Assembly (NCBI GenBank): GCA_021740585.1
Contig: JAIOZM010000004.1
Location: 1 to 64,000, forward strand
DNA: 64,000 nucleotides
Origin: Bacteroidales bacterium
GTDB taxonomy: Bacteria; Bacteroidota; Bacteroidia; Bacteroidales; GCA-2748055
Direction of reading: 5' to 3'
Positions 11,346-35,904 of the stretch are shown piece after piece; positions within the stretch are counted from its first letter, which is position 1; every line of letters starts with the position of its first letter. The position numbers were made by a program, and so were the translations under genes. The notes below the pieces were generated by a model. That model made no database searches. It was not told the origin of the DNA and saw only the letters and a program-made list of their open reading frames with translations.

Positions 11346-11360
11346 AATAAAAAAATCAGT

Positions 11361-11446
11361 AGTGTCCGTTAAAAATGTGAGATTATGTCATTGAGCGCAG
11401 CGCTGCAATCTTTTCAGGCTTTATAAGTTTTACCGGACAACAATGA
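11361..11446. repeat. MITE-like element with short terminal inverted repeats
   Basis: Left end tgtccgttaaaa (11363-11374) and right end ttttaccggaca (11428-11439) are inverted repeats with 11 of 12 matches. The right 41 nt (11406-11446) recur at 17923-17963 with 39 of 41 identical. The element contains no gene and lies between two sulfatase genes. It looks like a small non-autonomous mobile element or its remnant. Confidence 0.55.
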
Positions 11447-11515
11447 AAAAAATTCATAAATTTATCAATCATAGAGAAGTCTCAGGGTCTTCCGAATAAC
11501 TTTAAAAAAAATATT

Positions 11516-12988: not shown

Positions 12989-12996
12989 ACATCCTA

Positions 12997-14310: not shown

Positions 14311-14328
14311 TAAAACAAATAAAAAACC

Positions 14329-16194
14329 ATGATAAGAAAATTCATATTGATTCATATTGCTTTCAGTATTATTTTATCTGCAAAGATTTTTTCACAAGAA
14401 ATAATTATCCCGGAAATACCTGAGGTGGCGAAGGAGGATCAGATATGTTTTGCGATGTATACCGTACAGAATAATATTATGAAAATGTCGGCACAACTTT
14501 ATCCTTTGAACGATGATGACGACCGTTTTGTTCGCCTTGAGATAAATAAAGATGGCAAGTGGATTGAAATTGCAAGGGAAAGAATTAATGAAAATTCATA
14601 CAATTCTGTTGACGAGGCACGAGCCTGGAACGCTCTTTTTCGTATTGAAAACTGGGATTCAAAGAAAGATGTTGATTATCGGGTTGCATACGGAGAAACA
14701 GCATATTTTTATGGCAAAATAAGAAAGGATCCTATCGACAAAGAATCAATTGTTGTGGCTGCTTTTACCGGTAATTCAAATAAGGACAGGACTTTAAGAC
14801 CTGATATAATTGAAAATATCAAGGCTCAGGATCCTGACTTACTATTCTTTTCAGGCGATCAATCTTACGATCATAAATACCATTTGGCTGCCTGGTTATT
14901 ATTTGGCCGACAGTTTGGTGAAATTATCAAAGACCGACCAACAATAGCTATTCCTGATGATCATGATGTTGGTCAGGGAAATCTGTGGGGAGAAGGCGGA
15001 ATCCATACAGATAATCCTGCCGGCGACGATGGCGGCTATTATATGCCTGCTGAATACGTTAAAGAAGTCGAACGTGCTCAAACCGCTAATTTGCCTGATC
15101 CATTTGATCCAACACCAGTTGAACAGGGCATTGGGGTTTATTACACCTCCCTGAATATCGGAGGAATTGATTTTGCTATTATTGAAGATCGTAAGTTTAA
15201 GTCAGGACCTGCCGGTCTGGTCCCTAAACAAGGACCTCGTCCCGATCATATTAATGATCCCAATTACGATCCTAAAACAGTTGATATTCCCGGTGCTCAA
15301 TTACTTGGGGAACGCCAGTTAAAATTTCTTAATGATTGGGGACAGCAATGGGATGGAGTGGAGATGAAAGCCGTTCTTTCTCAAACCGTTTTTGCCAATG
15401 CAGCTCATATTCACTATGGCAGTCGTTTGATAGCAGATATGGATTCGAACGGTTGGCCACAAACCGGAAGGAATAAAGCTCTTGAAGAAATACGGAAATC
15501 TTATTCTTTTATGATTGGCGGCGATCAGCATCTGGCTACTGTTATCCATCATGGAGTGGAAAATTGGGACGACGCAGGCTTTTCATTTTGTGTGCCATCT
15601 ATCGTAAATTATTATCCAAGGGAATGGCGACCCTTAACAGCAAGTCTTGAGCCCATAAGCAAGGAACTTGAACATACAGGCAAATATTATGATGGTTTTC
15701 ACAATAAAATAACCATGTATGCTTATGCCAATCCGGACGAGAACAACACTCTTTATCCTAAATGGCGGGACGATGGCTTTTGGGGAAAATTAGCTGCCGG
15801 CTATGGAATTATCCGTTTCAATAAGACCAACAGAACTATAACCATGGAATGCTGGCCCAGAGGTGTTGACGTTACGAAAACAGATCCAAAACAGTTTCCT
15901 GGATGGCCGATAACTATAAAGCAACAAGACAATTATTCCCGTGAAGCTGTAACATGGTTGCCTGAAATTTTGGTTAAAGGAATGGAAGATCCTGTTATCT
16001 GGGTTTTTAATGAATCAAATAATGAGCTTGTATATTCCTTAAGGATTAAAGGTAACAGTTTTAAACCAAAAGTATTTGAAGATGGAAGATATACCATTAA
16101 AGTAGGAGATGGAGATGCTAAAGAAAAAGTGCTTTCCGGTATCGAAACGGGAAAAAATTCCGAGAAAAGAATAAAAATAAAATTTAAAAAATAG
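14329..16194 (+). CDS. PhoD-like metallophosphoesterase, exported, 621 aa
   Basis: Signal peptide about residues 1-23 (FILIHIAFSIILSAKIFSQ). Metal-ligand motifs of the PhoD/metallophosphatase superfamily are visible: FFSGDQSYDHKYH near residue 173, IPDDHDVGQGN near 207, and MIGGDQHLATVIHHG near 396. An N-terminal beta-sandwich precedes the catalytic domain, and a C-terminal all-beta part follows. Family members cleave phosphate mono- or diesters. Its position among sulfatases, 18 and 25 bp from its neighbours, suggests the substrate polymer carries phosphate or that this enzyme acts on a sulfate or phosphodiester in the glycan. That role is inference. Confidence 0.85.
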   Translation: MIRKFILIHIAFSIILSAKIFSQEIIIPEIPEVAKEDQICFAMYTVQNNIMKMSAQLYPLNDDDDRFVRLEINKDGKWIEIARERINENSYNSVDEARAWNALFRIENWDSKKDVDYRVAYGETAYFYGKIRKDPIDKESIVVAAFTGNSNKDRTLRPDIIENIKAQDPDLLFFSGDQSYDHKYHLAAWLLFGRQFGEIIKDRPTIAIPDDHDVGQGNLWGEGGIHTDNPAGDDGGYYMPAEYVKEVERAQTANLPDPFDPTPVEQGIGVYYTSLNIGGIDFAIIEDRKFKSGPAGLVPKQGPRPDHINDPNYDPKTVDIPGAQLLGERQLKFLNDWGQQWDGVEMKAVLSQTVFANAAHIHYGSRLIADMDSNGWPQTGRNKALEEIRKSYSFMIGGDQHLATVIHHGVENWDDAGFSFCVPSIVNYYPREWRPLTASLEPISKELEHTGKYYDGFHNKITMYAYANPDENNTLYPKWRDDGFWGKLAAGYGIIRFNKTNRTITMECWPRGVDVTKTDPKQFPGWPITIKQQDNYSREAVTWLPEILVKGMEDPVIWVFNESNNELVYSLRIKGNSFKPKVFEDGRYTIKVGDGDAKEKVLSGIETGKNSEKRIKIKFKK

Positions 16195-16219
16195 TACTAT
16201 TCTCAAATATTCAGAAAAA

Positions 16220-17737
16220 ATGAAAATACAATTATTTGGAGGTATAATGCTTGCATTAACGGCGGGCTCTTGTGCGCAGGTGAAAGAACAAGCGCAACCC
16301 AATATCATACTTATTGCGATCGATGATCTTAACGACTGGGTAGGTGCATTTGGCGGTAATCCACAGGCAATAACACCCAATATGGACAAGTTAGCCGAAC
16401 AATCGGTTATCTTCCAAAATGCCAATTGTCCCGGTCCTGTATGCGGGCCATCTCGTTCGGCACTTTTATCCGGATTTATGCCTTACACTACCGGGATTTA
16501 TGGGAATGCGAATAATATGCTTGACTCCAAACTCGTGCAGGAATACGCTACTTTACCGGAATATTTTTCCAAAAACGGTTACCTGACCATCTCAAAGGGT
16601 AAGATTTTTCATAAGCATACCACAGAAAACGGAATGGATCACGGTCAGTGGGCTTTTGATATATGGGAGCAGGAAACCGGTGATGGAAAAATACAAACCG
16701 ACAAGCTATATTCCCGTAATAAAGGCATCATAAATGGAGAGAAAGTGGCAGATTCAAAATTTACCGAAGGAGGTGGAACAGAGTTTGCCTGGTGTCCAAC
16801 TGAAGGCGATAAAGAGGATACGAAAGATTATAAGACCGCTCAGTGGTTCGCTGAAAAGCTGCAGGAAGATTACGAAAAACCTTTTTTTATGGCAGTGGGC
16901 CTTTCAAAGCCTCATCTTCCCTGGTATGTTCCTCAGGAGTATTTCGATATGTATGGACTCGATACATTGAAAATACCTGAATTCCATTTGGATGATCTTG
17001 ATGATATCATTGATGATAATGGAAAAAGAATGTTTTCGCCAACAGAAGATTTTCTATGGGCAAATCAGGATGAAGAACTTTTTAAAAGGGCCGTGCAGGC
17101 TTATTTGGCTAGTACTACTTATGCCGACGATTGTGTTGGTGTGGTTATGGATGCTTTAAATAATAGCAAATATGCGGAGAACACTATCATTATTTTGTTT
17201 GGCGATCATGGATGGCATCTGGGAGAAAAGCTGAGGTTCAGAAAAGTAACTTTATGGAAAGAAGCTACCCAACTTCCTTTGATGATAAAATTGCCGGGAA
17301 TGACAGAAAAACAATATTGTAACAAAACCGTTAATCTTATCGATTTATATCCTACGCTGATAGAACTATGTAATTTGCCAGAGAAAGCTTTGCTTGATGG
17401 CAAAAGCATAACTCCACTTCTTAAAAACCCTGAATTAGAATGGTCCCCTGCCATTACAACACAAGGTCCGGGTTCTTTTTCTGTTATTTCTCCAGACTGG
17501 CATTACATAACATATGAAAAGGGAGGGGAAGAATTATACGATTTAAAAAATGATCCAATGGAATGGGAAAATCTTACTCGTTCGGAATCAAGAACTATTA
17601 TAGAAGCCAAGACCTATTTACAATCATTTTTACCGGATAGTTATGCGGATAAATTGCCACAGAGTGATAAGGATAAATCAAGGAATGATGTTGACCTGAC
17701 GATTAAGCCTGGAAGGGATTTGAATACACTAAAGTAA
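16220..17737 (+). CDS. Sulfatase, iduronate-2-sulfatase-like (S1_7-type), lipoprotein
   Basis: Lipobox TAGSC at about residue 16. PNIILIAIDDLNDWVGAFGG and VCGPSRSALLSG (formylglycine site C75) are the standard signature of the iduronate-2-sulfatase group. FGDHGWHLGEKLRFRK holds the second metal site and a conserved substrate-pocket segment. In marine Bacteroidota, S1_7 enzymes act on several sulfated galactans and fucans, so the family alone does not prove uronate specificity. It follows the PhoD-like gene by 25 bp. A 290-bp repeat-filled gap follows it. Confidence 0.93.
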   Translation: MKIQLFGGIMLALTAGSCAQVKEQAQPNIILIAIDDLNDWVGAFGGNPQAITPNMDKLAEQSVIFQNANCPGPVCGPSRSALLSGFMPYTTGIYGNANNMLDSKLVQEYATLPEYFSKNGYLTISKGKIFHKHTTENGMDHGQWAFDIWEQETGDGKIQTDKLYSRNKGIINGEKVADSKFTEGGGTEFAWCPTEGDKEDTKDYKTAQWFAEKLQEDYEKPFFMAVGLSKPHLPWYVPQEYFDMYGLDTLKIPEFHLDDLDDIIDDNGKRMFSPTEDFLWANQDEELFKRAVQAYLASTTYADDCVGVVMDALNNSKYAENTIIILFGDHGWHLGEKLRFRKVTLWKEATQLPLMIKLPGMTEKQYCNKTVNLIDLYPTLIELCNLPEKALLDGKSITPLLKNPELEWSPAITTQGPGSFSVISPDWHYITYEKGGEELYDLKNDPMEWENLTRSESRTIIEAKTYLQSFLPDSYADKLPQSDKDKSRNDVDLTIKPGRDLNTLK

Positions 17738-18027: not shown

Positions 18028-19770
18028 ATGAAAAAAATGTTTTTCCTGATTTTTGCTGTAATAATTGCAAGCTTTTCCGGATGCGTCAATTCTCAAAAAG
18101 AAATAGCCATTGAACCTTCCAGTAAATACTTTCCTGAAAACTGCTGGGGTGTTTATAGTTGGGCTGGCTGGAATACAAAGGAAGTAAGTCGTGAGAGTCA
18201 TCCGCTTATCAAAGGAGCTCCAATTATCCTAAAATGGAATGATGTGGAGCCCGAACCCGGAGTTTTCAAATTCGAGGAGCTGCTGGATGAAAAACTTAAG
18301 CTGGCTGATGCAAATGATTTCTATACTTTTCTTATGATATGGGTAGCTCCCAATGCGCCAGAATGGCTCTATGAAAACGGGGTGCCAGAATTAGAAATGA
18401 CACCTACACTTAATCCTTTGGGACAACCCAGAGACTGGACTTTCCAGTATTATCTTGATGAGGATTATATTAATTATTATCACAGGCTTCTTAAGGAATT
18501 TGGAGCATACCTAATGCAACTACCTGATAGCTTGAGGGAAAGAGTGCTCTATATTCAGTCTGCCGAAGGAAGTACAGGAGATGGCGGGCCTTATAAAGGA
18601 GACCCTGTTCTTCCGGGATTTGTGATTAGCAATGAAGCCTGGGGCGAATTCAGAATAGATGCATGGGAGGTTCTCAAGGCCGCCGTGAGTGATGAGAATG
18701 GAGAAATGCAAATACCATTATTGGTTAATTTCGATTCAAATAGCAAGCGGCAATATGAATGGCTGTTGGAAAATCTTCCGGTAATCGGATTGAAAAACGG
18801 AATGTTCTCTCATGGTTATCATATCAGCGATACAAAAAGCAGGCTTGAAAGCTGGGAAACCTTTCGAAAAGATGTGGACGCTCATGGAATGGAATTTTTC
18901 TCTCGTGGAGAGCAGGATGGTGAATGGGCCGTTTACGGCTGGAGTACTCAGAATCCGGAACAGGCCTTTTACTGGTCGGGGATTTTTGCTACCCACTGCG
19001 GACTCGACATGTGGAATGTCCCTAATGAAGCAAGCGCTGGCTATCATTATCAGGATGCCATCAACTTTTTTAATAAATATGCCGGGCATCATAAGCCTTC
19101 CTCGGCACCTGCTGCTTTTTGCGCCTTGAGAAAAGGACTGGATGCTTCTGATACCATAGCATACCCCGAAAATATTTACGGTTCTGCAAAGAAGAATAAT
19201 ATTGGAAGATACCTCAATATTGCTGCCGCTTATAAGGAAAATGGCGCAATGCAGGGGGATCCTGAAAAAGCAACCGGCGGAGGAATGGTCAACCGGAAAA
19301 GACAGGATTATAACGATGTGGGATGGGGAATTCTTGATGGGAACTATCAAAGATTTATTAGTCAGATCGATGCCGAATCGACCAGTAAAGGCTGGTGGCA
19401 TAAAGGTCCTGAAAAAAGTATTTACAGTAGATTTGCAAGATCTATTATTATGAATGAAGATAAAGGAGCAATTTATTTTGATGTAAATGATTTATTTTAT
19501 CAAAATCCGGTTACACTCGAGATTCGAGTGGTATATCTTGATGAAGGCAATTCGGAATGGTCTTTTTTGTATGACTCGAAAAAAGATCCCGAGAAAATGG
19601 CTTATACCATAAAAAATGAAAACTCAGGAGAATGGAAGGAAAAAACTATCATCGTAAAGGATGCCAAATTTGAAAATAATGGCGAACGATCTTCTGATAT
19701 TAGCATTAGGTCTGTAGGCAAAGAGGATGTAATATTCCATCTGATAGAAGTAATTAAAATTGAGAAGTGA
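18028..19770 (+). CDS. Putative (beta/alpha)8 glycoside hydrolase, lipoprotein, paralogue 1 of 4
   Basis: First of four tandem paralogues (18028, 21781, 23600, 25369). Lipobox FSGC near residue 20. The body has the features of a clan GH-A-like barrel: GVYSWAGWN, ILKWNDVEPEPGVFKFE, APEWLYENGVPE, a YIQSAEGSTGDGG segment with E180, and FFSRGEQDGEW with E295. E295 is conserved in all four copies and is the best nucleophile candidate; E180 is shared only with paralogue 2. A C-terminal beta-sandwich ends in VIFHLIEVIKIE. I cannot assign a CAZy family with confidence. Activity on a galactan is inferred from the alpha-galactosidases and sulfatases around it. Confidence 0.8.
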   Translation: MKKMFFLIFAVIIASFSGCVNSQKEIAIEPSSKYFPENCWGVYSWAGWNTKEVSRESHPLIKGAPIILKWNDVEPEPGVFKFEELLDEKLKLADANDFYTFLMIWVAPNAPEWLYENGVPELEMTPTLNPLGQPRDWTFQYYLDEDYINYYHRLLKEFGAYLMQLPDSLRERVLYIQSAEGSTGDGGPYKGDPVLPGFVISNEAWGEFRIDAWEVLKAAVSDENGEMQIPLLVNFDSNSKRQYEWLLENLPVIGLKNGMFSHGYHISDTKSRLESWETFRKDVDAHGMEFFSRGEQDGEWAVYGWSTQNPEQAFYWSGIFATHCGLDMWNVPNEASAGYHYQDAINFFNKYAGHHKPSSAPAAFCALRKGLDASDTIAYPENIYGSAKKNNIGRYLNIAAAYKENGAMQGDPEKATGGGMVNRKRQDYNDVGWGILDGNYQRFISQIDAESTSKGWWHKGPEKSIYSRFARSIIMNEDKGAIYFDVNDLFYQNPVTLEIRVVYLDEGNSEWSFLYDSKKDPEKMAYTIKNENSGEWKEKTIIVKDAKFENNGERSSDISIRSVGKEDVIFHLIEVIKIEK

Positions 19771-19830
19771 TTTCTGATAATTTATTTATTCGGAAAAAGT
19801 GAATTATAATTGAAAAAAGGTCTTATTAAG

Positions 19831-21267
19831 ATGAAACAGATATTTCTTATACCTACACTTTTTATTAACCTGCACTTTTCAATACAGGCACAAGATAAAC
19901 CGAATGTTATTCTTATTCTATCAGATGACCATAGTTATCCTCATGTAGGCTGTTATGGCGATGAAAATATCCTGACATATAACATTACCCCCAACATTGA
20001 TGCTTTTGCCAGACAGGGTATGCGGTTTGAAAGAGCCTACACCACTGCACCTCAATGTGCTCCTTCACGAATTTCTATATTTACAGGTCGCAGTCCTATG
20101 AGTATTGGAATAACTCGTTTTATGGAACCAGCGGGAAAGGATGTGGATTTTTTTACAGATATTTTAAGAAAATCCGGTTATTGGGTTGGTCTTGATGGCC
20201 GCCACCATCATTTAGATGGAGCTGTAAAAGATAAAAACCCAATTATCAATGAAACCCTTAGCGAGGAAGGGATGAAAAATCTGGAACAACGTTTTGACCA
20301 TGTAGGGAGGTACAACACCAAAGGCATAAGTTTAGATACCGTCCCACAAAAGTTAAACTCAATTTTAGATGAGGTACCTCTGGGGAAACCTTTCTTTCTC
20401 TATTTTGGGTTTAATCAACCTCATCGAAAATTTGAAGATGATTTTGAAGAAATAGACCCTGAACAATTACTGTTACCACCAGATTTCCCCGATTTACCGG
20501 AAGTACGTAAAGATTACGCACGTTACCTGTCAGATGTTCGTGACATGGACCGAGGTTTTGGATATATAATGAAGGTTCTTGAAGACAGAGGTTTATCGAA
20601 AAATACAATTGTCATTTTTATGGGTGATAATGGCGAATCCTTATTACGCGGCAAGGGAACCTTGCATAGCCGTGGTATTCATGTGCCGTTAATCATAAGT
20701 TGGCCGGGAGTAATACAAGAAAATTCCTCAACCAAAACGCTGGTAAGCGGCGAAGATCTTGCACCGACCATACTTGAAATGCTTGGATTAACTTTTAATA
20801 ATGAAATTTCCGGGAGGAGTTTTCTAAATACATTAAAAGGAATTAAAACTGGGAATGAGCGCGACTTTATTTTCGCTGAGAGGGGTTGGCACTGGGGACC
20901 ACTTACCCGTACCGATGGTTTGGATTTTTGCAGGTCGGTAACCTCAGAACGTTTTCATTTTGTGTATAACGCACTACCAAAACAGGAATTTGCACCGGTG
21001 GATATGGTAAAAACATTGGCTTGGGATGAAGTTGTAGAAGCTCATTCAGATAAAAGATTATCTGATTTAATCGAGAGTTTTTATTTCTATAGCGATCGAC
21101 CTGTTTTTGAGTTCTACGATTTAGTAAATGATCCTTTTGAGCTCAATAATCTATCGGGACAAAAAGAATTCATAGAATTAGAAAAAATTCATCGGGATGA
21201 ATTAGATAAGTTGATGATAAAGGATCATGATTTTTTACCATTACCCTCTCATGTTATTGAAAATTAA
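19831..21267 (+). CDS. Sulfatase (S1 family), exported
   Basis: Formylglycine site C76 in CAPSR within RAYTTAPQCAPSRISIF, metal site NVILILSDDHSYPHVGCYG, and second metal site IFMGDNGESLLRGKGTLHSRG. The frame is open from a TTG at 19810, but ATG 19831 begins a good signal peptide (MKQIFLIPTLFINLHFSIQAQ), so that start is used. There is no lipobox, so the enzyme is probably soluble in the periplasm. The SDDHSY and TPNIDAFARQGMRFERAY segments resemble the N-sulfatase or heparan-type group. It lies 60 bp after paralogue 1 of the hydrolase family. A decayed gene follows. Confidence 0.92.
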   Translation: MKQIFLIPTLFINLHFSIQAQDKPNVILILSDDHSYPHVGCYGDENILTYNITPNIDAFARQGMRFERAYTTAPQCAPSRISIFTGRSPMSIGITRFMEPAGKDVDFFTDILRKSGYWVGLDGRHHHLDGAVKDKNPIINETLSEEGMKNLEQRFDHVGRYNTKGISLDTVPQKLNSILDEVPLGKPFFLYFGFNQPHRKFEDDFEEIDPEQLLLPPDFPDLPEVRKDYARYLSDVRDMDRGFGYIMKVLEDRGLSKNTIVIFMGDNGESLLRGKGTLHSRGIHVPLIISWPGVIQENSSTKTLVSGEDLAPTILEMLGLTFNNEISGRSFLNTLKGIKTGNERDFIFAERGWHWGPLTRTDGLDFCRSVTSERFHFVYNALPKQEFAPVDMVKTLAWDEVVEAHSDKRLSDLIESFYFYSDRPVFEFYDLVNDPFELNNLSGQKEFIELEKIHRDELDKLMIKDHDFLPLPSHVIEN

Positions 21268-21360
21268 TATGACTCGGGTCATTCAGATTCACTAAACGGT
21301 AGTTAGGGTTGTGCGTGCTTAGGTTTCAGCAATGGGTCATGACATAGGGAGAGAATTTGA

Positions 21361-21710
21361 ATGAAAAAATCAATATTGAGTATAATTGGCGTTATCCTGC
21401 TTGGTGCGACTGTGCAGTTGGGTGCTGCCGATATCAAGGTATGGCAGAATCCCCTTTGGTGATGATCGCAAAAACCGTTTCATTCTTCCGTAAGAACCAG
21501 AAACATTGGATGATGTTAAATCGGCAATATGGTTGGGAAACCGCACTCCTCAAATTATGGACAATCGGTATGCAAATGTCACCGACTCCTTCCCACTTCA
21601 AAAAGGAAATATTGCATTTAAACTTTGAACGAATTGTAATTCCAAATTGGAATAAAACGCTACCCGTTTTTTATATAGGTAGGTTAACTTTGCTGAAGAA
21701 CTTTTGCTAA
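21361..21710 (+). pseudogene. Decayed exported protein gene (5' fragment with frameshift)
   Basis: ATG 21361 starts a typical signal peptide (MKKSILSIIGVILLGATVQ) and the sequence AADIKVWQNPLW, then a stop at 21460. From 21458 the +1 frame continues plausibly (GDDRKNRFILP, a stop at 21491, then EPETLDDVKSAIWLGNRTPQ to a stop near 21630). This is a gene start destroyed by a frameshift and stops. The family cannot be named. The 3' part of the region has been taken over by operator/promoter site 2. An overlapping frame of 117 codons from 21357 is not a believable protein. Confidence 0.55.
21644..21692 (+). promoter_or_regulatory. Candidate HTCS operator and promoter, site 2
   Basis: AAATTGGAATAAAAC (21644-21658) is identical to the 15-mer at site 1 and stands 26 nt before TAACTTTG (21685-21692), a perfect TAnnTTTG -7 box. 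Here the 15-mer is part of an exact palindrome, attccaa-a-ttggaat. Transcription would start near 21700, about 80 nt before the hydrolase at 21781. The array therefore has a second HTCS-responsive start, driving paralogues 2-4 and the genes beyond. Confidence 0.65.
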
Positions 21711-21780
21711 TAGAATACTTTTAAATACGGGCAAAATATATACTTAGGAAAATTTGATTTTGTATTAAAAAAAATACCCT

Positions 21781-23565
21781 ATGAAGATACTTAAAGTATT
21801 ATCAGCTATTGCTCTAGCTTCCGCACTATTTTTATCTCTTGTCAGCTGTAACAGTCAATCATCAAAAAATGAATCAGCAGTATCTACAACCCTGCCTGCG
21901 GGAATAATTCCTGTTGATGCCTGCGGTGTCTGGTGCTGGTACTCAACCGGTGGTGCCCCCAACAAGTGGGACGGAAAAATATCAGATGAAGAGACCTACC
22001 CCGGTATGAGAGGTATCCCCATTGTTGTTGGATGGAATGAACTGGAACCCGAAGATGGTATCTATAACTGGAATCTGATTGACGACATTATAAAAAAAGC
22101 TGATGAATACGACAAGTATGTTTTTACCCTCTTATGGCTTAACCCTGTAAATCCGGAATGGCTGTATGAAAAAGGAGTTCCTAAAGTTGAGATTGAATCT
22201 TTCAAGAGAGATCCCAATTTCTCAACCCTTCCATACCCCATGGATGAGAAATACAAGTTCTATTCAGAACGTATTATCACAAAGCTGGCTGAGCATTTGA
22301 GGAGTCTTCCTCCTGATCTGTTCGAACGAATAGTATTTCATCAGGTAGTGGAAGGTTCTACAGGAGACGGATTCTGCTATAAAGGCGACCCGGTAGACCC
22401 AAAATACAATGTTTCAAGAGATGAATGGGCTGAATATCAGAAATATATCAGAAAATTTACCGTAGATGCTTTTACGGAAAAGGATAGCGGATTGCCTGAG
22501 ATTCCTTTATTGATACATCTGATGACCGATGGGGATATGACCTGGGGCGCAGAGCAGTATGAAGGATTCCTGACAAAAAAAGGAGTGGCCTCCCATTTTT
22601 ATAATAGCAATGATTCACGCTCAAAATCATTGGTTTACGAACCATACAATACCCCTGAAAATGAATTAGGAAGACCGGTTTATAGTCGGGGAGAAGGCGA
22701 AACCATGTGGATGAGGGAATGGTTTAAAAAAGACTCATTGCAAAATCTTTATTGGAGTGCTTTTCATGCCTTGCATTGGGGATTGGATATTTGGAATATT
22801 CCGGATCATATCCTGGCTGAGCCACGATGGTATCCTGCTTTAGATGTATTTAATAAATATGCCGGAAATAAATTCCCCGGGATTTCTCCTTATGCATTTG
22901 CAGCATTAAAAGATCAATTAAATGCCGATGACACCATTCGATTCCCGGAAAATATTTACGGAGTAGCTACAAAAACAAATACAGAAAGAGTACTTAAAAT
23001 CTGTTCTTCTTTTGCCGACCATGGGGCAATTGTTGAAGATTTGGATTTAAGTCTTGCAGGAAGCCATAGCAGTCGAGCCAGAAGAGGATATAATGATGTT
23101 GGTTGGGACAGGATTGATACCGATTATCGCATGTATTTGTATTCAATAGATCAAGTAGAAACAAGTGTTGGCTGGTGGCATATCGGACCAAAAGAATCTC
23201 CTTATGGCCGTTTTGCACGAGGATTCGAACATTCCACTGGAAAGGACACCCTCTTTTTCAAATTCCATAAAGATTTCTTCCCGGGTAATGGAAAAAAGGT
23301 GGGAAACCTGAAGTTCAGAATAGTGTGGTTGGATAACAACAAAGGATCCTGGAAATTTGTCTACGACGCAGGAGGTCGTGAAATGAATACTGCAGCCGAG
23401 TTTTCAGGGATGGGAACTGGTAAATGGAGAGAAGAACTCATAACTGTTAAGGATGCTATAATGGACGGAAATGGTCCCAGGGCTTCAGATATTGTCCTTA
23501 TAAATACTGACAATCTGGATAACATCTTTCACATTATTGAGGTTGAACGGATAGTTGAGGAATAA
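21781..23565 (+). CDS. Putative (beta/alpha)8 glycoside hydrolase, lipoprotein, paralogue 2 of 4
   Basis: Lipobox LVSC near residue 24. It shares with paralogue 1 the segments WNELEPEDGIYNWN, NPEWLYEKGVPK, VVEGSTGDGFCYKGDP (E191), YSRGEGETMW (E305), WGLDIWNIPD, FNKYAGNKFPG and NADDTIRFPENIYG, and the C-terminal sandwich ending NIFHIIEVERI. E191 and E305 correspond to E180 and E295 of paralogue 1 and are acid/base and nucleophile candidates. It is the first gene after operator site 2. It likely acts as a cell-anchored exo- or endo-glycosidase on the imported glycan; the bond cleaved is unknown. Confidence 0.8.
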   Translation: MKILKVLSAIALASALFLSLVSCNSQSSKNESAVSTTLPAGIIPVDACGVWCWYSTGGAPNKWDGKISDEETYPGMRGIPIVVGWNELEPEDGIYNWNLIDDIIKKADEYDKYVFTLLWLNPVNPEWLYEKGVPKVEIESFKRDPNFSTLPYPMDEKYKFYSERIITKLAEHLRSLPPDLFERIVFHQVVEGSTGDGFCYKGDPVDPKYNVSRDEWAEYQKYIRKFTVDAFTEKDSGLPEIPLLIHLMTDGDMTWGAEQYEGFLTKKGVASHFYNSNDSRSKSLVYEPYNTPENELGRPVYSRGEGETMWMREWFKKDSLQNLYWSAFHALHWGLDIWNIPDHILAEPRWYPALDVFNKYAGNKFPGISPYAFAALKDQLNADDTIRFPENIYGVATKTNTERVLKICSSFADHGAIVEDLDLSLAGSHSSRARRGYNDVGWDRIDTDYRMYLYSIDQVETSVGWWHIGPKESPYGRFARGFEHSTGKDTLFFKFHKDFFPGNGKKVGNLKFRIVWLDNNKGSWKFVYDAGGREMNTAAEFSGMGTGKWREELITVKDAIMDGNGPRASDIVLINTDNLDNIFHIIEVERIVEE

Positions 23566-23599
23566 AACATAAATATTTAACAATATAATAACCAATTCG

Positions 23600-25345
23600 A
23601 TGAAATCAATTAAATATAGCTTGCTGATCGCTCTTTCAATCAGTATTATTTCTACTTCGAATCTTAATGCTCAAAGTGCCCTCGATCTCAAAGCCTATGG
23701 TGTCTGGAGTCGCGGGGATATTGAGTTTGATCCCGCAAAACCAAACTACGACTATTTATTGGGGATGTCGGCCCCGGGTTCCTGGGGAAATATTCAACCG
23801 GATGACAGTTCAACCTACAATTGGAATATTATTCAGGAATCGATTGATTTGGCTACTGAAAGAAATCAATACCTGTATCTGGGAATTGGATTTGGACCTG
23901 AAGCCCCGGACTGGATCTATGAATGTGGTGTTCCCAAAGTATATACAACTGAAGATGGGCCTAAGCAACATGATAAATGGCCATACTACCCATATTATGC
24001 GGATCCAGACTATATGCGGTATTATAAAAATTTCCTGATTAAATTAGGAGAATTCCTGAAAAGTCAACCCGCAAATAAACTGGAGAAGGTTGTTTTTATT
24101 CAGGTAAAAACGGGGTGCACCGGGGATGAGACTGCTTATAAAGGGAAGGCCAATAACCCGGAATATGAAATGGAAAAAAATAGTAAAGGCTGGCTGGACT
24201 TCAGACTTTTCGCCTTTGAAACCTACAGGGAAGTTTTTAATTCAGAAGATCTCCATATTCCCTTATTATTTAATGCAATCAGTCCTGAATCTTACCCCGA
24301 TGAATGGCAATGGCTAACTGAAAATATCGGTAACGGTTTCGGTATTAAAGAAGGGGCTATGGTAAGGGGACATCACCTGACCGGCGAAAGAACAGTTGTT
24401 GAGCAATGGAATCCTCACCTGGTGAATCCAAAGGAACTACCTCTTTTTGCAAGATCGGAAATGGATCAGACATGGAGGAAATACTTATATCAGATCAATG
24501 TTGAACTGGGATTTTACTGGGGAGTGCTGAATGGCTTAAATCAGGGATTATCGGTTTGGGACCTATCCAATAGCGCTCTGGAAATGGCCGGTAAAAATAC
24601 TTCGGTACAAAATTCATTAAGATTCTTCAACAAATATGCCGGACAAATTTATCCGGAATCTTCTACCCATGCATTTATTGCCCTGCACGAGGGAATGGAT
24701 GCATCCGACACTAAAAAATTCCCTGAGGATATATATGGCGAGGCCTCTCCAAAAAATGAAGCAAGGTATGAGGCCATTTGTAATGATCCTGCCTATAAAG
24801 CCAGGGGTGCAAGAATTGACGACTCTTATGGAGCTACTCTTGGACAGGTGCGGCAGAGAGATACACAAAAAGCATATAATGATGCCGGTTGGGAAATATG
24901 GCCGACTAACTATTCGCGCTTTATAACTCAAATCGATCCGGATAATACATCCATCGGAGTATTCAGAATTGGAGGTCCCATTGATAAAAACTCATCCATC
25001 TATTCACGTTTCGCGCGTTCGTTTGAAAGCAGCACAGGAAAAAATGCTATGTATTTTAAATTGGCTGACGGCTTTAGCCAGGATAATCCCCAGAATATAA
25101 CTTTCAATGTGATATACTATGATAAGGTGAAAGGATCTGAATGGGAATTAAAATATGACGCCGGAAAAGGCAACTTTAAAACGGCAAAAAAGGTCATAGG
25201 TACAGGTGATAAAACTTGGAAATCCATTACAGTTAAGGTTACCGATGCAGTGCTGAATCAAAATGGTCCTGAAAAATCCGATTTCGCACTTGTAAATGCG
25301 GATAAAATAGATGATATTTTCCACATGATTGAAGTTGAAAAGTAA
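23600..25345 (+). CDS. Putative (beta/alpha)8 glycoside hydrolase, exported, paralogue 3 of 4
   Basis: A type I signal peptide (ending NLNAQ) replaces the lipobox of paralogues 1 and 2. The mature protein starts ALDLKAYGVWSRG and keeps the family pattern: SWGNIQPDDSSTYNWN, PDWIYECGVPK, QVKTGCTGDETAYKG, FARSEMDQTW (E287, nucleophile candidate) and NKYAGQIYPE. At the position of E180/E191 it has Thr, with Glu instead five residues later (TGDE), so acid/base placement or specificity may have changed. It is very close to paralogue 4, including long near-identical DNA around 24840-24910 and 26585-26660, which points to recent duplication or gene conversion. Its stop overlaps an in-frame upstream ATG of paralogue 4 (TAATG). 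Confidence 0.8.
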   Translation: MKSIKYSLLIALSISIISTSNLNAQSALDLKAYGVWSRGDIEFDPAKPNYDYLLGMSAPGSWGNIQPDDSSTYNWNIIQESIDLATERNQYLYLGIGFGPEAPDWIYECGVPKVYTTEDGPKQHDKWPYYPYYADPDYMRYYKNFLIKLGEFLKSQPANKLEKVVFIQVKTGCTGDETAYKGKANNPEYEMEKNSKGWLDFRLFAFETYREVFNSEDLHIPLLFNAISPESYPDEWQWLTENIGNGFGIKEGAMVRGHHLTGERTVVEQWNPHLVNPKELPLFARSEMDQTWRKYLYQINVELGFYWGVLNGLNQGLSVWDLSNSALEMAGKNTSVQNSLRFFNKYAGQIYPESSTHAFIALHEGMDASDTKKFPEDIYGEASPKNEARYEAICNDPAYKARGARIDDSYGATLGQVRQRDTQKAYNDAGWEIWPTNYSRFITQIDPDNTSIGVFRIGGPIDKNSSIYSRFARSFESSTGKNAMYFKLADGFSQDNPQNITFNVIYYDKVKGSEWELKYDAGKGNFKTAKKVIGTGDKTWKSITVKVTDAVLNQNGPEKSDFALVNADKIDDIFHMIEVEK

Positions 25346-25368
25346 TGCTAAACCAAAATTATTTAAAG

Positions 25369-28300
25369 ATGAATTTTTGTAAAAAAAGTTTCATTATAGC
25401 CTTTATTGTTATCCTTTTTGGAGCGAATTTGTTTTCTCAGAGCGCATTAGATATTAATGCTTATGGTGTTTGGTGCAAAGGTACAGATTTTGACCCTGCT
25501 GATCCCAATTTCGATTTTCTAAAAGGCATGTCGGTCGAAGATGCCCAATGGAAGTTGATCCAGCCGGTTGATAGTTCGTCATATGATTGGAGTTCAATTC
25601 AGCAATCTATTGATATCGCTGCAGAAAGAGGTCAGTTTATGTACCTTGGCATTGGTATGGGACCCGATTGTCCGGAATGGGTGTATGAAAATGGCGTCCC
25701 CAAAGTATATACTGATGATACAATGCATCCTGGCTGGGATTACTACCCATATTACAGCGATCCGGATTACGTAAGGTATTCTGACAAATTTATTGAAGCT
25801 TTTGGTGAATTTCTTACTAGTCAGCCCCGGGAAAAACTTAAGTGGGTAGGATTTATTCAGGTAAAAACAGGCTGTACAGGGGATGAGGTAGCCTATAAGG
25901 GTTCTCCTCTGGATTCACAATATGATATTCCTATAACAGGACAAAAATGGTTAGATTTCAGATTGGGGGTGTTTGAAAAATACCGGGTAGCGTTTCTCAC
26001 CGGGGATAATAAAATCCCATTAATGTTCAATGCTATCAGAGAGGAGGATTATCCTATAGAATGGAGCTGGATCATCAATAACATTGGTTCCGGATTTGGT
26101 ATAAAGGAAGGAGCCCTGGTTAGGGGGCACCATCTTACCGGTGAACGTATTGTCGTGGAAACATGGAAACCTTGTTTGGTTAATCCAAAAGGGCTGGCAC
26201 TTTTTACCAGATCCGAAATGGACCAGACATGGAAACAAGCACTTTATCAGCTAAATCAGGAATTAGGATTTTATTGGGGCATAATCAATGGTCTAAACCA
26301 GGGATTGTCATTAAATGATGTATCTGTAAGTGCTATGACTGAAACAGAAAACAATATTAGCATACAAAATACATATAGATTCTTTAATAAATATGCTGAC
26401 CAAATCTACCCAGAAAACTCAAGCAAGGCATTTATAGCCTTCCATGAAGGACTGGATGCATCCGATACAAATAAGTTTCCGGAAAGTAAATATGGTGCAG
26501 CCAACCAGAACAACCAATCCAGATATGCTGCCATTTGTAATGATCCTATATATAAAGCCAGGGGAGCCAGAATGGATGACCTCTATGGAGCTACCCTTGG
26601 ACAGGTGCGGCAGAGAGATACACAAACAGGATATAATGATGCAGGCTGGGAAATATGGCCGGGAAATTATTCCAGATTTCTCACACAGATAGATCCTGAA
26701 GGCACATCCATTGGATTGTTCAGAATTGGCGGAACCATAACCACAAGCTCCCCAATTTACTCAAGATTTGCGCGTTCATTTGAAAACAGCACAGGTAAGA
26801 ATGCCATGTATTTTCAGCTAGATGAAGATTTATTCAATAACACACCCGAAACGGTTACCTTCATAGTCACCTACTTTGATAAAACCAATGGCTCTGGCTG
26901 GAGTCTGAAATACGACGCCGGGAATCCCGAACTTAAGGAAGCGTATACCGTTACATGCAAGGGGAGTGGAACATGGAAAACACAGGTAGTCACAGTTAAT
27001 GATGCAGTGCTGGACCATAACGGTCCCCAGGGAGCAGATTTTGCCCTTATAAACACCGACGGAAAAGATGATATTTTTCATATGATTCAAGTGGAAAAAG
27101 GAGTAGCATCCCCTATTTACAAAAAATCTAATAATGCTCTCCTCGAATCAATATGCTGGCCGGATATCCCTGACTCCTTAAAAAATGCAGAATGGAATAA
27201 TCTGATAATTCCCGGATTTAAAACTGATGTATTAAGTTATACCATTCCGGTCCCTTACGGATTCAAACAGATCCCGGCCCTTACTGCTAAAACTCAGGAA
27301 ATTAATGCCAGCTTAAAAACTGAGAGAGCAACAAACCTGATGGGGAGTGCAGAGGAAAGAACCACAACTTTTACAGTTACGGCAGAAGACGGAAAAACAA
27401 AATTAAGCTATAAAGTACTCTTTGAACCTGAAAATTCAGTTTCGCTGAGTAGCCAGCCTTTTCAGGCTGAACCGCTTTTTACAAGATTGGTTTACCGCGA
27501 ATGGTTTAATAACAATTATATTGAAATCTCAAATCCGGGTACCGATACCATTGACCTAAGTGACTACCTCATTGCCATCGGTGATAACAAAACTCCGGAC
27601 CAGATTATTTCTGACACACTCACATTTGATAAGCGTTATAAGTATTACATTCCCGGTTGCGATTATCCGGCAGGTGATTCTGCAACATTTGTTCCTGGTA
27701 TAGTTGTAGCAGATCCTGACGTAGAATCAAAGATTGAACCGAATGGATCTTTTGTTATTGGAATGATTGAAAGGGAAGACCCGCTTGATAACATTCATAT
27801 TGACGATTGTGATATAATAATGAACAAAGATCTTTATTTTGAAACCGATGTCAAACTTCTTATTCCTGGGATAAATACAATAATAAATGACGGATGGATG
27901 ACCAATAGTGCTCTTTGTCTTTATAAAATTCTCAATGATTCTATTAAAAATGGAACTAAAGCAATCTCCGATCCCGATGATTTCCAGCTTATTGATGTAT
28001 TTGGAACCTTTGACGGCTCCGGCTGGGCCCCTGATGGAGCGGCTCTTCTCGATGAAGACAACAAATGGAATTTAACCAGAAAACCCGAATTCTGGTTGGG
28101 CGATACGCTTCCCGGACTTGAAGGCTCCTGGGGTGCAAATAAGAGTGAGTCAGAATGGATCTGCTATAGCAAAGAAGATTATGAAGCATTGGGAATGAAT
28201 GCACCGGAAAGCCATTTCGCACTAAGCGAAAACATTGGAAGTCATACTTTTGATCCTGTAACAGAATATATTTCTACTATTTCTTCAATTATTTATGAAG

Positions 28301-29871
28301 TTAGTCTGGGGCATGAATCCCCGCAAATTATAGAAGGTATCCCATTTAACACCACTTTATCAGGATTTCTGGCGAACATTATTAAAGCTCATATTGATCA
28401 GGATATTGTTCTGGAGGGGATAGATGGAACTATAAAAGCAATTGACGAAATAATTATTGAAGGAGATACCCTTACGGTAACTTCATCATATGGTAATAAT
28501 ATTACCAAATATGGACTTAATACATCAGCAGTAGCACAAAGTGACGATGCTGTTCTTATCGCGAAGGATGGCTCTGGTTATACCATTGATTATTTAGATG
28601 CTAAGGGGACTATTTCCGGCATTCCTTCAGGGATCAGTATCTCTTCCATTCTTAATAACACCATCCTTCCTGAAAATGCAATACTCAATGTCATTGATGC
28701 TGAAAATAATCTGGTTCCATTACTCACATTAAATTCCTCAGGTTCCTATTTGCCAACAACGGCCGGTGACTCTATTTTCTTTGAAGTAATTGCAGAGGAT
28801 AATTTTACAAAAATCAGCTACCAGCTTCAATATATTTTAAACGAGAATGAGGCTTATGTATGGTCGGATGTTTATAATGTAGATCAGGAAAGGTCTATTG
28901 TAACAGAGATATCGCCTGCAGTGAATGTCTCTGTCTTGTTTAAAAATCTGAAGCCGAATATTGGTTCATCCATTAAACTTATGGATCGTGCCGGGATAGA
29001 GAACTTGCAAGGTCCTGTTGATCCTGAAGACTATGTTATTGTTAAATCTGCAGATGGATCAAAAGAAAAAGCCTACCAGCTTAATTTTAATGGTGAAGAC
29101 CTGGGTAGTGAAGCATTTCTAAGATCTGATAAGTATTATATCAATCAGGAGTCGTTTCTGGTCGACAGCGTTTTGATTGGTACCCAGGCGGAAGAACTCT
29201 TAGATAATATTAATGCCTCTCCTTATGCAAGTCTTGAACTTCTTGACATTAGTATGTCACCTGTTTTCACAGGATCACTGGATGAAAACCATACGATTCA
29301 CATAACTTCCGGAGATGGTGAAACAAAGAATGTGTACCAGATCAGCTTTTATGAATTAGGAACTGAAGCTTTCATTACTTCGGACATATACAGGATTTAT
29401 CAGGAAACATTTATTATTGACAGCATTGAGATGGAAACTTCGGTTAGCGTCTTTCTGGCAAATATTACAGCAGCACCAGGGGCAAGCATCACAATTCTTG
29501 ATGCAAACCAAAACCCTGTAAGCTCAGGAAATCTGGCACAGGGATATTCGGTAAAAGTAATATCTGAAGATGGTTTGAAAGAGCTTGTTTATATTTTAAG
29601 TTTTTATGATCCAAGTTTGGGAATAAATTCTGAAATAAAATCTGTCAAATTATATCCAAATCCGGTTGGCGATCTCTTAAGTATTGAAGGACTTTCACCG
29701 CAAAGTACAATTAACGTTATGAATATTGTTGGGAATCTTATAACAAGTTTTACCAACGAAAACTCTGAAAAACTCGAAGTTTTTACGGGTAATCTAGATC
29801 CTGGTATCTATTTCATCCAGCTTAAGAATCAGGATCACAATTCAGTTATATTTAAAATTGTAAAAAATTGA
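25369..29871 (+). CDS. Multidomain T9SS-secreted putative glycoside hydrolase with lamin-tail and repeat modules, paralogue 4 of 4
   Basis: The start is taken at ATG 25369 (signal MNFCKKSFIIAFIVILFGANLFSQ); the frame opens 24 nt earlier. Residues about 25-577 are a catalytic domain closely matching paralogue 3 (GCTGDEVAYKG; SEMDQTW with E283). Then come a cadherin-like beta domain (about 580-690), a lamin-tail-like domain (about 700-965, EWFNNNYIEISNPGTDTIDLS), two mixed-beta modules, three about 80-aa repeats (pattern [FYI]xSDxYxIxQE ... DGxxKxxYxxxF; about 1155-1410) and a type IX secretion tail (KLYPNPVGDLLSIEG ... GIYFIQLKN). It should act at the cell surface or outside. The non-catalytic modules are shared with the protein at 47195. 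Confidence 0.87.
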   Translation: MNFCKKSFIIAFIVILFGANLFSQSALDINAYGVWCKGTDFDPADPNFDFLKGMSVEDAQWKLIQPVDSSSYDWSSIQQSIDIAAERGQFMYLGIGMGPDCPEWVYENGVPKVYTDDTMHPGWDYYPYYSDPDYVRYSDKFIEAFGEFLTSQPREKLKWVGFIQVKTGCTGDEVAYKGSPLDSQYDIPITGQKWLDFRLGVFEKYRVAFLTGDNKIPLMFNAIREEDYPIEWSWIINNIGSGFGIKEGALVRGHHLTGERIVVETWKPCLVNPKGLALFTRSEMDQTWKQALYQLNQELGFYWGIINGLNQGLSLNDVSVSAMTETENNISIQNTYRFFNKYADQIYPENSSKAFIAFHEGLDASDTNKFPESKYGAANQNNQSRYAAICNDPIYKARGARMDDLYGATLGQVRQRDTQTGYNDAGWEIWPGNYSRFLTQIDPEGTSIGLFRIGGTITTSSPIYSRFARSFENSTGKNAMYFQLDEDLFNNTPETVTFIVTYFDKTNGSGWSLKYDAGNPELKEAYTVTCKGSGTWKTQVVTVNDAVLDHNGPQGADFALINTDGKDDIFHMIQVEKGVASPIYKKSNNALLESICWPDIPDSLKNAEWNNLIIPGFKTDVLSYTIPVPYGFKQIPALTAKTQEINASLKTERATNLMGSAEERTTTFTVTAEDGKTKLSYKVLFEPENSVSLSSQPFQAEPLFTRLVYREWFNNNYIEISNPGTDTIDLSDYLIAIGDNKTPDQIISDTLTFDKRYKYYIPGCDYPAGDSATFVPGIVVADPDVESKIEPNGSFVIGMIEREDPLDNIHIDDCDIIMNKDLYFETDVKLLIPGINTIINDGWMTNSALCLYKILNDSIKNGTKAISDPDDFQLIDVFGTFDGSGWAPDGAALLDEDNKWNLTRKPEFWLGDTLPGLEGSWGANKSESEWICYSKEDYEALGMNAPESHFALSENIGSHTFDPVTEYISTISSIIYEVSLGHESPQIIEGIPFNTTLSGFLANIIKAHIDQDIVLEGIDGTIKAIDEIIIEGDTLTVTSSYGNNITKYGLNTSAVAQSDDAVLIAKDGSGYTIDYLDAKGTISGIPSGISISSILNNTILPENAILNVIDAENNLVPLLTLNSSGSYLPTTAGDSIFFEVIAEDNFTKISYQLQYILNENEAYVWSDVYNVDQERSIVTEISPAVNVSVLFKNLKPNIGSSIKLMDRAGIENLQGPVDPEDYVIVKSADGSKEKAYQLNFNGEDLGSEAFLRSDKYYINQESFLVDSVLIGTQAEELLDNINASPYASLELLDISMSPVFTGSLDENHTIHITSGDGETKNVYQISFYELGTEAFITSDIYRIYQETFIIDSIEMETSVSVFLANITAAPGASITILDANQNPVSSGNLAQGYSVKVISEDGLKELVYILSFYDPSLGINSEIKSVKLYPNPVGDLLSIEGLSPQSTINVMNIVGNLITSFTNENSEKLEVFTGNLDPGIYFIQLKNQDHNSVIFKIVKN

Positions 29872-29877
29872 TAGCAA

Positions 29878-31287
29878 ATGAAAAATAAACTTCTTTCCAG
29901 AAAAAGTTTTATAAAGTCATCCATTGGGATTGCTGCTGGCACAATAGCATTTCCTTATATGGCTTATGGCAATTCCTTCAGGTCAGCCAATGATATTCCA
30001 AACCTCGCTTTTATCGGAATTGGAGGCCGGGGTTCCAAGAACATTGAAAGTTTTCAAGGACTTGGAAATTTTGTTGCCTTTGCTGACGTTTCAGAAAACT
30101 CCAGCACCGTTCAACAGATAAGATCAGAATATCCCAAAGTACCATTTTTCAAAGATTATCGAAAAATGTTTGATAAAATGCACCAGCAGATCGATGCTGT
30201 AGTGGTCAGTACACCGGATCATTCTCATTATGCGATTGCTATGTGGGCAATAAGTGCGGGGAAGCACGTGTATGTGGAAAAACCTCTTACCCATACCATA
30301 GAGGAAGCCAGAAAGCTGAAACAAGCCGCCGCAGAAGCGGGGCTTATTACCCAAATGGGTAACCAGAGCTATTCCAACGATGGTATACGGGTATGCAAAG
30401 AATGGATCGATGCCGGGCTGATCGGTAATGTTAGTGAAGTAATTCAATGGACCGATCGTTTAACACCCGGTCAGATAGCAATACCGGGAAAAGAATGGCC
30501 AAAAGCTGAACCGATTCCTGATGGACTCGACTGGAAACTATGGATGAATGTTGTTCAAGATACTCAATATCATTCAAATATCGAAGGAAACTGGCGGGGA
30601 TGGTGGAGATTCGGATCAGGTGCTCTGGGAGACATCGGCTGCCATATGATGGGTATTCCGTTTTATGCTCTTGATCTTGGAATCCCTGAAAAAATTAGCG
30701 CAATTAGCAGGGGAGGTAGCAAATTGCATTGTCCTTTACAAAGCAAAGTAACCTACGAATTTAAGGGGGCTGAACATAAGAACCCATTGAAGATGACATG
30801 GTACGATGGTTTTAGAAAAAAGGATGGGAAGCAGGAAATCTATGAGGGATTTGATACTTCTTTTCTACCTAATATCCCGGCAGCTTTTCCAACAAAGGAT
30901 ACTAATGCTTTATCAGAAAACGGCCAGTTTATCGTGGGAGACGAAGGTCTGATATACATTCCGGCAATGCATCTTGGCAAAGAGCCCATTCTGCTACCTG
31001 AAGAAAAGTGGGAGGATATAAAAAATAATCTCCCGGAACCAAAATTGGAACGGGTTGAAAATCACTGGCTTAATTTCATACAGGCAGTAAAAGGAGAGAT
31101 TCCTCAGGCATCCTCAAATTTTAATGTTTCTGCAAATTTGACCGAAATCGTTCTACTTGGGAACCTTGCTCTTCGTAGTGGCAAACCTATAAAATGGGAT
31201 GCTGAGAATATGATATGTACCGGCAATAGTGCGGCAACAAAGCTGGTCAAAGAAAATCCTGCTCATCCAGAATTTTTACCGGGATGA
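29878..31287 (+). CDS. Gfo/Idh/MocA-family oxidoreductase, exported
   Basis: An NAD(P)-binding Rossmann domain begins LAFIGIGGRGSKN (about residue 43), with VVSTPDHSHYAIAMWAISAGKHVYVEKPLTHT as the family's cofactor and Lys-Pro signature. A C-terminal GFO/IDH-type alpha/beta domain follows. The N terminus (SRKSFIKSSIGIAAGTIAF) looks like a Tat-type export signal, as is usual for Bacteroidota members of this group, which can carry tightly bound NAD. It is 6 bp after paralogue 4 and 38 bp before a DUF1080 protein. Known pairs of this kind oxidise glycosides at C3 so that a lyase or hydrolase can cleave them. That function here is inference; a GH109-like retaining mechanism is the alternative. 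Confidence 0.88.
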   Translation: MKNKLLSRKSFIKSSIGIAAGTIAFPYMAYGNSFRSANDIPNLAFIGIGGRGSKNIESFQGLGNFVAFADVSENSSTVQQIRSEYPKVPFFKDYRKMFDKMHQQIDAVVVSTPDHSHYAIAMWAISAGKHVYVEKPLTHTIEEARKLKQAAAEAGLITQMGNQSYSNDGIRVCKEWIDAGLIGNVSEVIQWTDRLTPGQIAIPGKEWPKAEPIPDGLDWKLWMNVVQDTQYHSNIEGNWRGWWRFGSGALGDIGCHMMGIPFYALDLGIPEKISAISRGGSKLHCPLQSKVTYEFKGAEHKNPLKMTWYDGFRKKDGKQEIYEGFDTSFLPNIPAAFPTKDTNALSENGQFIVGDEGLIYIPAMHLGKEPILLPEEKWEDIKNNLPEPKLERVENHWLNFIQAVKGEIPQASSNFNVSANLTEIVLLGNLALRSGKPIKWDAENMICTGNSAATKLVKENPAHPEFLPG

Positions 31288-31325
31288 TGGTTGCAATTAA
31301 TAAAATCACGCTTAAATAATCTAGT

Positions 31326-32348
31326 ATGAAATTCTTCGTATTACACCTGGCTTTTTTATTTACACTAACTGCATTCTCGCAAACACGTTCTGAAATTCCT
31401 CCATTTATGGGAGACTGGCAGGGAATGTTTGACGATCAAAAAGGTGATGCAGATCTTGTAGCAAGAGTTATTGGACTCGGCAATTCTAACTACAGAATAC
31501 AGATTCTTCCGGAATGGGATAAACGTGCAGTTCCCTATGTGGATGTTGAAGCCACTGAAATTGATGGCCGGATAAAATTTAAGCAAGGTGAATGGGAAGT
31601 TTCCATTAGCTCCAACTCATTTGAAGGTATTAAATATGAAAAGCAAGATGAACGAGCTTTCAGATTGAAACACATACAAAGGAAATCTCCAAGTCTTGGA
31701 TTAACTCCTCCTGATGATGCCATCGTATTATTTAATGGTACAGATTTTAATGAATGGATTCATCCGGATAGTCCCGATGAAAAAATCGTATGGAAAATAG
31801 AGGATGGTGCCATGGAGATATTGCCTGGCATGAATAAGATTGATGGCAAAAGGAGTAAGAATGATCTTATTACAAAACGTCAATTTACAGATCTTGAGTT
31901 ACATATTGAATTTTGTATCCCCTACCAGCCGGAAAAACGAGAACAGGGAAGGTCTAACAGCGGGGTCTTTCTTCAGAATTTTTACGAGATTCAAATCCTT
32001 GACAGTTACGGCCTGGATGGAATGTGGAATGACTGTGGTGCCCTGTATAAAATGTCTCCACCAAAGGTAAATATGTGCTTTCCTCCGGGAGAATGGCAAA
32101 CTTATGATATAGTTTATTACAGTCCGGTTTTTGATAATTCCGGTACAAGAATTAAAAATGCAATAATCACCGTCAATCATAATGGGGTATTGATTCATAA
32201 CAGGACAGAATTGGTGCAGCCTACAGCCCATAACCAATCAGCGAGAAAAACAGATAAGGCACCTTTCGATCCGGCGCCCATCATGCTCCAGGATCATAGT
32301 AACCCTGTTAAATTCAGAAATATCTGGATCCGTGAAATAGTTAAATAA
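31326..32348 (+). CDS. DUF1080 (3-keto-disaccharide hydrolase-type) protein, exported
   Basis: Signal peptide residues 1-19 (ending AFSQ). A short N-terminal beta domain precedes the DUF1080 LamG-like sandwich (about residues 135-340), with the usual markers IVLFNGTDFNEWIH, VWKIEDGAMEI, FTDLELHIEFCIP, GRSNSGVFLQNFYEIQILDSYG, PPGEWQTYDIVYYSP and HSNPVKFRNIWIREI. Characterised family members hydrolyse or eliminate 3-keto-glycosides. It follows the Gfo/Idh/MocA oxidoreductase directly, so the two form a likely oxidation-then-cleavage pair. Confidence 0.88.
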   Translation: MKFFVLHLAFLFTLTAFSQTRSEIPPFMGDWQGMFDDQKGDADLVARVIGLGNSNYRIQILPEWDKRAVPYVDVEATEIDGRIKFKQGEWEVSISSNSFEGIKYEKQDERAFRLKHIQRKSPSLGLTPPDDAIVLFNGTDFNEWIHPDSPDEKIVWKIEDGAMEILPGMNKIDGKRSKNDLITKRQFTDLELHIEFCIPYQPEKREQGRSNSGVFLQNFYEIQILDSYGLDGMWNDCGALYKMSPPKVNMCFPPGEWQTYDIVYYSPVFDNSGTRIKNAIITVNHNGVLIHNRTELVQPTAHNQSARKTDKAPFDPAPIMLQDHSNPVKFRNIWIREIVK

Positions 32349-32373
32349 TTCAGAATGCTCATAACCCTTAAAA

Positions 32374-35798: not shown

Positions 35799-35904
35799 TA
35801 CAAAGATTATCATTCACTTACAACAGAATTTGAGGATGCAAATACCTTATAAAGAAATCGACGAATATTTTAAAAACGGAATGAGTTTAAAAATTTAATT
35901 TATC

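Follow-up and report, generated by a model that had tools for sequence, protein, structure and literature searches.

The window considered here is a 64,000-nucleotide stretch of DNA from a Bacteroidales bacterium (GenBank assembly GCA_021740585.1, contig JAIOZM010000004.1, positions 1 to 64,000), and the subject is a set of four homologous genes on its forward strand. Copy 1 (W1) lies at 18028-19770, copy 2 (W2) at 21781-23565, copy 3 (W3) at 23600-25345, and copy 4 (W4) at 25345-29871. A profile of the four copies, compared with the whole 4.23-Mb genome, matched exactly these four places (E < 1e-284). The proteins are homologous from end to end, with pairwise identities of 31-36%, except for copies 3 and 4, which share 63%. 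The reading tentatively favoured here is that they represent a new glycosidase family resembling clan GH-A of the glycoside hydrolases (GH), with a constant Asp185/Glu295 core (copy 1 numbering, used for all residue columns) and a second carboxylate that is specific to each class.

A first-pass annotation of the sequence had described the genes as four tandem paralogues. Their paralogy is borne out by the identities, but only copies 2-4 are contiguous; copy 1 is followed by a formylglycine-type sulfatase gene (PF00884; 19810-21267, forward strand) and a 513-bp gap. In a tree of the family, copies 3 and 4 are sisters and, on that evidence, a local duplication. Copies 1 and 2 fall in separate class I clades, each with its nearest relatives in other Bacteroidota, so the four-gene set appears to have been assembled or inherited rather than formed as one tandem series. 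An antisense open reading frame (ORF) at 18736-19401 was regarded as spurious. The different cellular locations proposed earlier agree with the sequence features. Judged by eye, copies 1 and 2 have an N-terminal signal followed by Cys (SFSGC and SLVSC), which makes them putative lipoproteins, and copy 3 has a plain signal sequence. The copy 4 ORF starts at 25345 and has a Met in frame at 25369. Its family domain (residues 9-590) precedes cadherin-like and LTD-like stretches and a C-terminal type A sorting domain of the type IX secretion system (T9SS; TIGR04183, E 1e-10 in NCBIfam).

AlphaFold2 models based on 102 family sequences reached a mean predicted local distance difference test score of 93.9 for copy 1 and 94.4 for copy 3, with predicted template modelling scores of 0.93-0.94. 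Both copies are predicted TIM barrels, and the models and a fold search agree on a (β/α)8 barrel of the clan GH-A kind. In the copy 1 model, the barrel covers about residues 38-335, a helical stretch extends to about 420, and a β-sandwich occupies about 440-578, in keeping with the barrel and C-terminal sandwich that the first-pass annotation had expected. The fold search matched GH14, GH35, GH5, GH10, and GH42 barrels (Z 13-16, root-mean-square deviation 3.3-4.8) and returned no single close structural relative. D185 follows β4 in the model, and E295 ends β7. The β4 strand end and loop of copy 1 are encoded at 18544-18588 (residues 173-187, including Q177, E180, G181, and D185) and the β7 strand end at 18892-18918 (residues 289-297, including E295), both on the forward strand.

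A scan of GTDB genomes recovered 69 loci with about 100 full-length members, and the residue counts given here are over the 102 sequences. D185 and T183 are present in 102/102, and G181, G184, and E295 each in 101; R394, I398, G406, N429, D430, G432, R471, D505, and W536 are likewise kept in all or nearly all members. D185, part of a TGD motif, is invariant in copies 1-4. The Glu earlier named as invariant (E295, E305, E287, and E283 in copies 1-4, the last being E291 when counted from 25345) occupies a single alignment column. The sole member without it, at locus L051 (117-1664), has Val instead, which is either a base error or a natural knock-out.

Three classes are distinguished by the loop after β4. 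Class I has Glu180 (29 members), class II has Thr180 with Glu186 (51, one of them lacking Glu186), and class III has an aromatic residue or Leu at 180 and neither Glu (22). By residue pair at columns 180/186, the members divide into E/G (26), E/E (2), E/T (1), T/E (50), T/G (1, at L024), and aromatic or Leu without Glu (22). The two E/E members are adjoining Phocaeicola copies (L026, at 8182 and 9839). Copies 1 (E180, D185, E295, D297, and D327) and 2 (E191, D196, and E305) belong to class I, and copies 3 (T171, D176, E177, and E287) and 4 (T175, D180, E181, and E291, each minus 8 if the start is 25369) to class II. The replacement of E180/E191 by Thr in copies 3 and 4, with a Glu appearing further on, was correctly noticed in the first pass, but the offset is six residues (T171 to E177), not five. 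The motif pattern of the four genes is not a matter of chance, as it holds across the 102 sequences.

In clan GH-A enzymes, the catalytic pair sits on strands β4 and β7, and the acid/base Glu is preceded by Asn. E295 agrees with the nucleophile in position, ending predicted β7 and falling on the GH35 nucleophile column. The Asn-Glu motif is absent from the family by sequence alignment with GH42 and GH35. Column 180 (Glu or Thr) falls on the motif Asn, and column 181, which is Gly in 99% of members, falls on the acid/base Glu. This Gly implies that the proton donor comes from elsewhere, or that the register is shifted by one. The latter would make the family a canonical retaining clan GH-A enzyme with a local bulge, in which E180 takes the acid/base place and the sites of classes II and III are degenerate. 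Such a shift is suggested by the GH35 and GH42 profiles, in each of which E180 aligns immediately ahead of the canonical Glu, the two alignments running from the same Gln. It is unlikely to be right, because classes II and III form the majority, are conserved across phyla, keep D185 and E295, and show no sign of decay.

The exchange between classes I and II is nearly exact (E/G in 26/29 against T/E in 50/51), which is what would be expected had the acid/base itself moved within the β4 loop. Glu180 would then serve in class I and Glu186 in class II, E295 would be the constant nucleophile, and class III would be inactive or rely on another residue. The GH35 and GH42 alignments, which place E180/T180 within one residue of the canonical acid/base site, are consistent with this account, as is a sister family that retains Glu in column 186. 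It is a serious possibility but falls short of being probable; the weight given to it, like that given to the constant core, is a judgement and not a computed value. Both Glu residues are missing from L024 and from all 22 members of class III, although these keep D185 and E295; the two Phocaeicola copies have both; and root support of 32-55 gives no direction for the change. The account extends the first-pass idea of the shifted Glu as the catalytic acid, which, with D185 in all 102 sequences, is not supported as put. That a proton-donating Glu has shifted in backbone position within the β4 loop while the β7 nucleophile stayed fixed, with both states preserved in one cluster, is likewise a serious possibility short of being probable.

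The history of the classes bears on the same question. The three class labels need four changes on the tree, where the minimum possible is two, so the classes are old clade marks rather than repeated switches, and the E180/E186 exchange is accordingly weak evidence for compensation. Rooting with the sister family did not resolve which class is oldest (support 32-55). Divergence of one family in active site and location, as first suggested, is retained in the sense of a class-wide swap (E180/G186 against T180/E186), but not as simple local tandem divergence, since copies 1 and 2 belong to old clades. The sister family can be aligned with this one over the full length (profile match E 2e-73) and is found in the same clusters, at L010, L011, L014, L026 (15833), L039 (6266), and L044 (2440). 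Its members are 490-570 aa long, carry the motifs GTEH and YAEPW, and lack a full Pfam match.

Class III invites a different explanation, namely that some classes, and this one above all, are non-catalytic glycan-binding barrels that hold substrate for catalytic paralogues. E180, E186, and D297 are all missing from class III, and class IIIa genes frequently adjoin class II genes, as such partners might. The presence of D185 and E295 in 22/22 class III members speaks against a purely binding role, which is unlikely.

A constant Asp185/Glu295 core is favoured, though at less than even confidence, because D185 is the sole carboxylate in the β4 loop common to all classes; together with E295, it completes the only set of β4/β7-site carboxylates kept throughout. 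The 23 members with neither Glu and the two with both are not easily fitted to a single moving acid. At the thresholds used, the only columns that switch cleanly between classes I and II (45, 180, 186, 262, 264, 323, and 327) all lie in the barrel near strand ends, which points to a changed pocket. With a constant core, glycosidic bonds would be cleaved in the barrel pocket, Glu295 on β7 acting as nucleophile or base and Asp185, in the β4 loop, as the acid in every class. The further pocket carboxylate (Glu180 of class I, Glu186 of class II) would vary with the class and suit the pocket to another sugar, another linkage, or another state of sulfation. The four copies would then be secreted enzymes with predicted glycoside hydrolase activity, forming an undescribed family that is a distant relation of clan GH-A and lies nearest to GH42/GH35. 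The labour may be divided between the two lipoproteins (copies 1 and 2), copy 3 in the periplasm or in soluble form, and copy 4, exported by the T9SS to the cell surface. All four may act together with the nine sulfatases and with GH36/GH27-like enzymes on a single sulfated polysaccharide that probably contains galactose.

Several points weigh against this reading. Conservation of D185 could be structural, as part of a tight TGD turn. The sister family has Thr in the D185 column, with its Glu in column 186, and the GH14 alignment behind D185 as the acid has a probability of only 6-11%. Finally, no class IIIb locus has a sulfatase neighbour (0/8; raw counts over loci of 9 kb or more, with no random-locus control), so a sulfated substrate cannot hold family-wide.

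In the same tallies, a sulfatase homologue lies near class I genes at 21/21 loci, near class II genes at 23/31, and near class IIIa genes at 5/9. GH36-like genes and GH127 enzymes recur around family loci, which leans towards a galactose- or arabinose-containing glycan. At locus L019, sulfatase genes are again mixed with copy-2-like and copy-3/4-like genes. The class IIIb genes (L050, L052, L057, L060, L061, L062, L064, and L066) are ORFs of 967-3571 aa, often paired and mostly from Chitinophagaceae; no sulfatase, GH36-like, or SusC/D homologue was present in the flanks fetched for them.

Within the window, the forward strand upstream of copy 1 (7569-17737) encodes a SASA-type carbohydrate esterase fused to a melibiase-like barrel (7569-9770), four sulfatases, and a PhoD-like phosphatase. 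The downstream region (29878-46787) holds a Gfo/Idh/MocA oxidoreductase, a 3-keto-disaccharide hydrolase domain, a GH36-like (melibiase) protein, four more sulfatases, an (α/α)6-like hydrolase, and an α/β hydrolase. The sulfatases of the window number nine by PF00884. The maturation motif C-x-(P/A)-x-R followed by TG is present in 8/9, and in the ninth (16220) SG takes the place of TG after CGPSR. A SusD-like gene (51707-53605, identified by Pfam) adjoins a SusC-like gene (53607-56771, by reading) on the reverse strand, where a second SusD/SusC-like pair (59997-63999) was also recognized by reading. A single forward frame at 35905-39567 is interrupted by TGA at 38296-38298 (NHSYY, stop, RVDQV) and continues unshifted to a T9SS-type tail; its product, a large secreted protein, has no match in Pfam, and the TGA appears to be either a base error or a nonsense change.

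The family is widely but thinly spread. Its hosts belong to Bacteroidota, Verrucomicrobiota, Planctomycetota, Acidobacteriota, Kiritimatiellota, and Sumerlaeota, and one record each is assigned to Bacillota and Pseudomonadota; since most relatives come from metagenome bins, records that stand alone in their phylum may result from misbinning. Among evenly sampled genomes, the family occurs in 1/198 of the window's order and 2/395 of its phylum. Some genomes hold many copies, such as Flavobacterium luteum NBRC 112527 (11 matches) and Limnovirga soli (8), a few of these being fragments. One F. luteum copy (L021, 20161-21392) is split in two frames of 254 and 164 aa and is likely a pseudogene. The patchy spread fits horizontal transfer. 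No relative was found on plasmids. If the favoured reading is correct, about eight bacterial phyla would share an unnamed enzyme family, numbering up to 11 copies in a genome and recurring in clusters rich in sulfatases, in bacteria of many habitats. Part of the machinery for sulfated-glycan breakdown would gain a name. For studies of acid/base replacement, the family would also provide a natural series in which a single barrel takes three active-site states, two of which occur in one cluster.

The inability of the first-pass annotation to place the copies in a known CAZy family stands to the extent that Pfam, NCBIfam, and PDB sequences contain no covering family; CAZy profiles themselves were not compared. 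None of the four copies has a full-length family match in these sources, and the NCBIfam scan gave only sub-threshold matches apart from the T9SS domain. The GH42 profile PF02449 scores 27.1 bits with copy 2 (cut-off 21), over profile positions 32-125 of 376 only, and 14.7 bits, below the cut-off, with copy 1; copies 3 and 4 have no match. Ten diverse proteins (seven relatives and three sister or more distant proteins) have no full Pfam or NCBIfam match. Neither PF01301 (GH35) nor PF01373 (GH14) matched the four copies at E up to 1 or the ten proteins at E up to 10. Searches of PDB sequences by phmmer with copy 1 and by the four-row profile gave only noise. The 102-row profile retrieved GH42, GH10, and GH35 chains over β1-β3, some GH35 chains reaching the start of β4. 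Papers dealing with GH42-like enzymes or with new families of clan GH-A do not, going by title and abstract, describe this family.

GH14 β-amylases (PF01373) give the top or tied structural Z scores (15.4 and 16.1). In this inverting family, the G-x-x-G-(D/E) loop after β4, which carries the catalytic acid, may correspond to the loop considered here: at the 6-11% probability noted above, the profile alignment with GH14 (L130) puts D185 on the Glu of GGPAGE and G181 and G184 on its glycines. In soybean β-amylase, Glu186 is the general acid, and the role of Glu380 is described in the same source (PMC8449922). The Glu of FTCLEM was considered as the β7 base of GH14 and dropped, as a spacing of about 195 residues from the GPAGE Glu (compare 202/397; PMC8449922) leads to the Glu of GENA. 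The RYPSY segment of GH14 is absent from the family. Locus L104, in a Bryobacterales genome, encodes a GH14-like protein of 744 aa with GPSGDYGEAQYP after β4, a motif between those of GH14 and the family. The profile alignments with GH14 (L130) and with L104 both fell short of confidence.

GH167 is a GH42-like family of clan GH-A that acts with sulfatases (PMC6923384). Its β-neocarrabiose-releasing enzymes have four domains, including a helical N-terminal one, in about 775-808 aa, and their acid/base and nucleophile Glu overlap those of GH42 (PMC6923384). No GH167 chain was listed among the matches of the 102-row profile to PDB sequences, which does not exclude GH167.

The nearest named families are GH42 and GH35. 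GH42 (PF02449) β-galactosidases share the TIM barrel and a profile likeness over β1-β3 (profile-profile probability 97%, residues 67-166). The alignment ends before β4, however, and the family has Gly181 in place of the acid/base Glu, a length of about 580 residues, and a C-terminal sandwich, with no separate α/β domain like the GH42 trimerisation domain B evident in its predicted secondary structure. GH35 (PF01301, Bgl35A type) gives the best Foldseek matches (E 2e-10 to 2e-11), but at a template modelling score of about 0.4. Its profile likeness runs as far as the β4 Gln (94%, residues 65-180), the Asn-Glu being replaced in the family, and in a global alignment E295 falls on the Glu of its β7 SEW motif. 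By the features tested, the family is a distant relative of clan GH-A enzymes rather than a member of GH42 or GH35.

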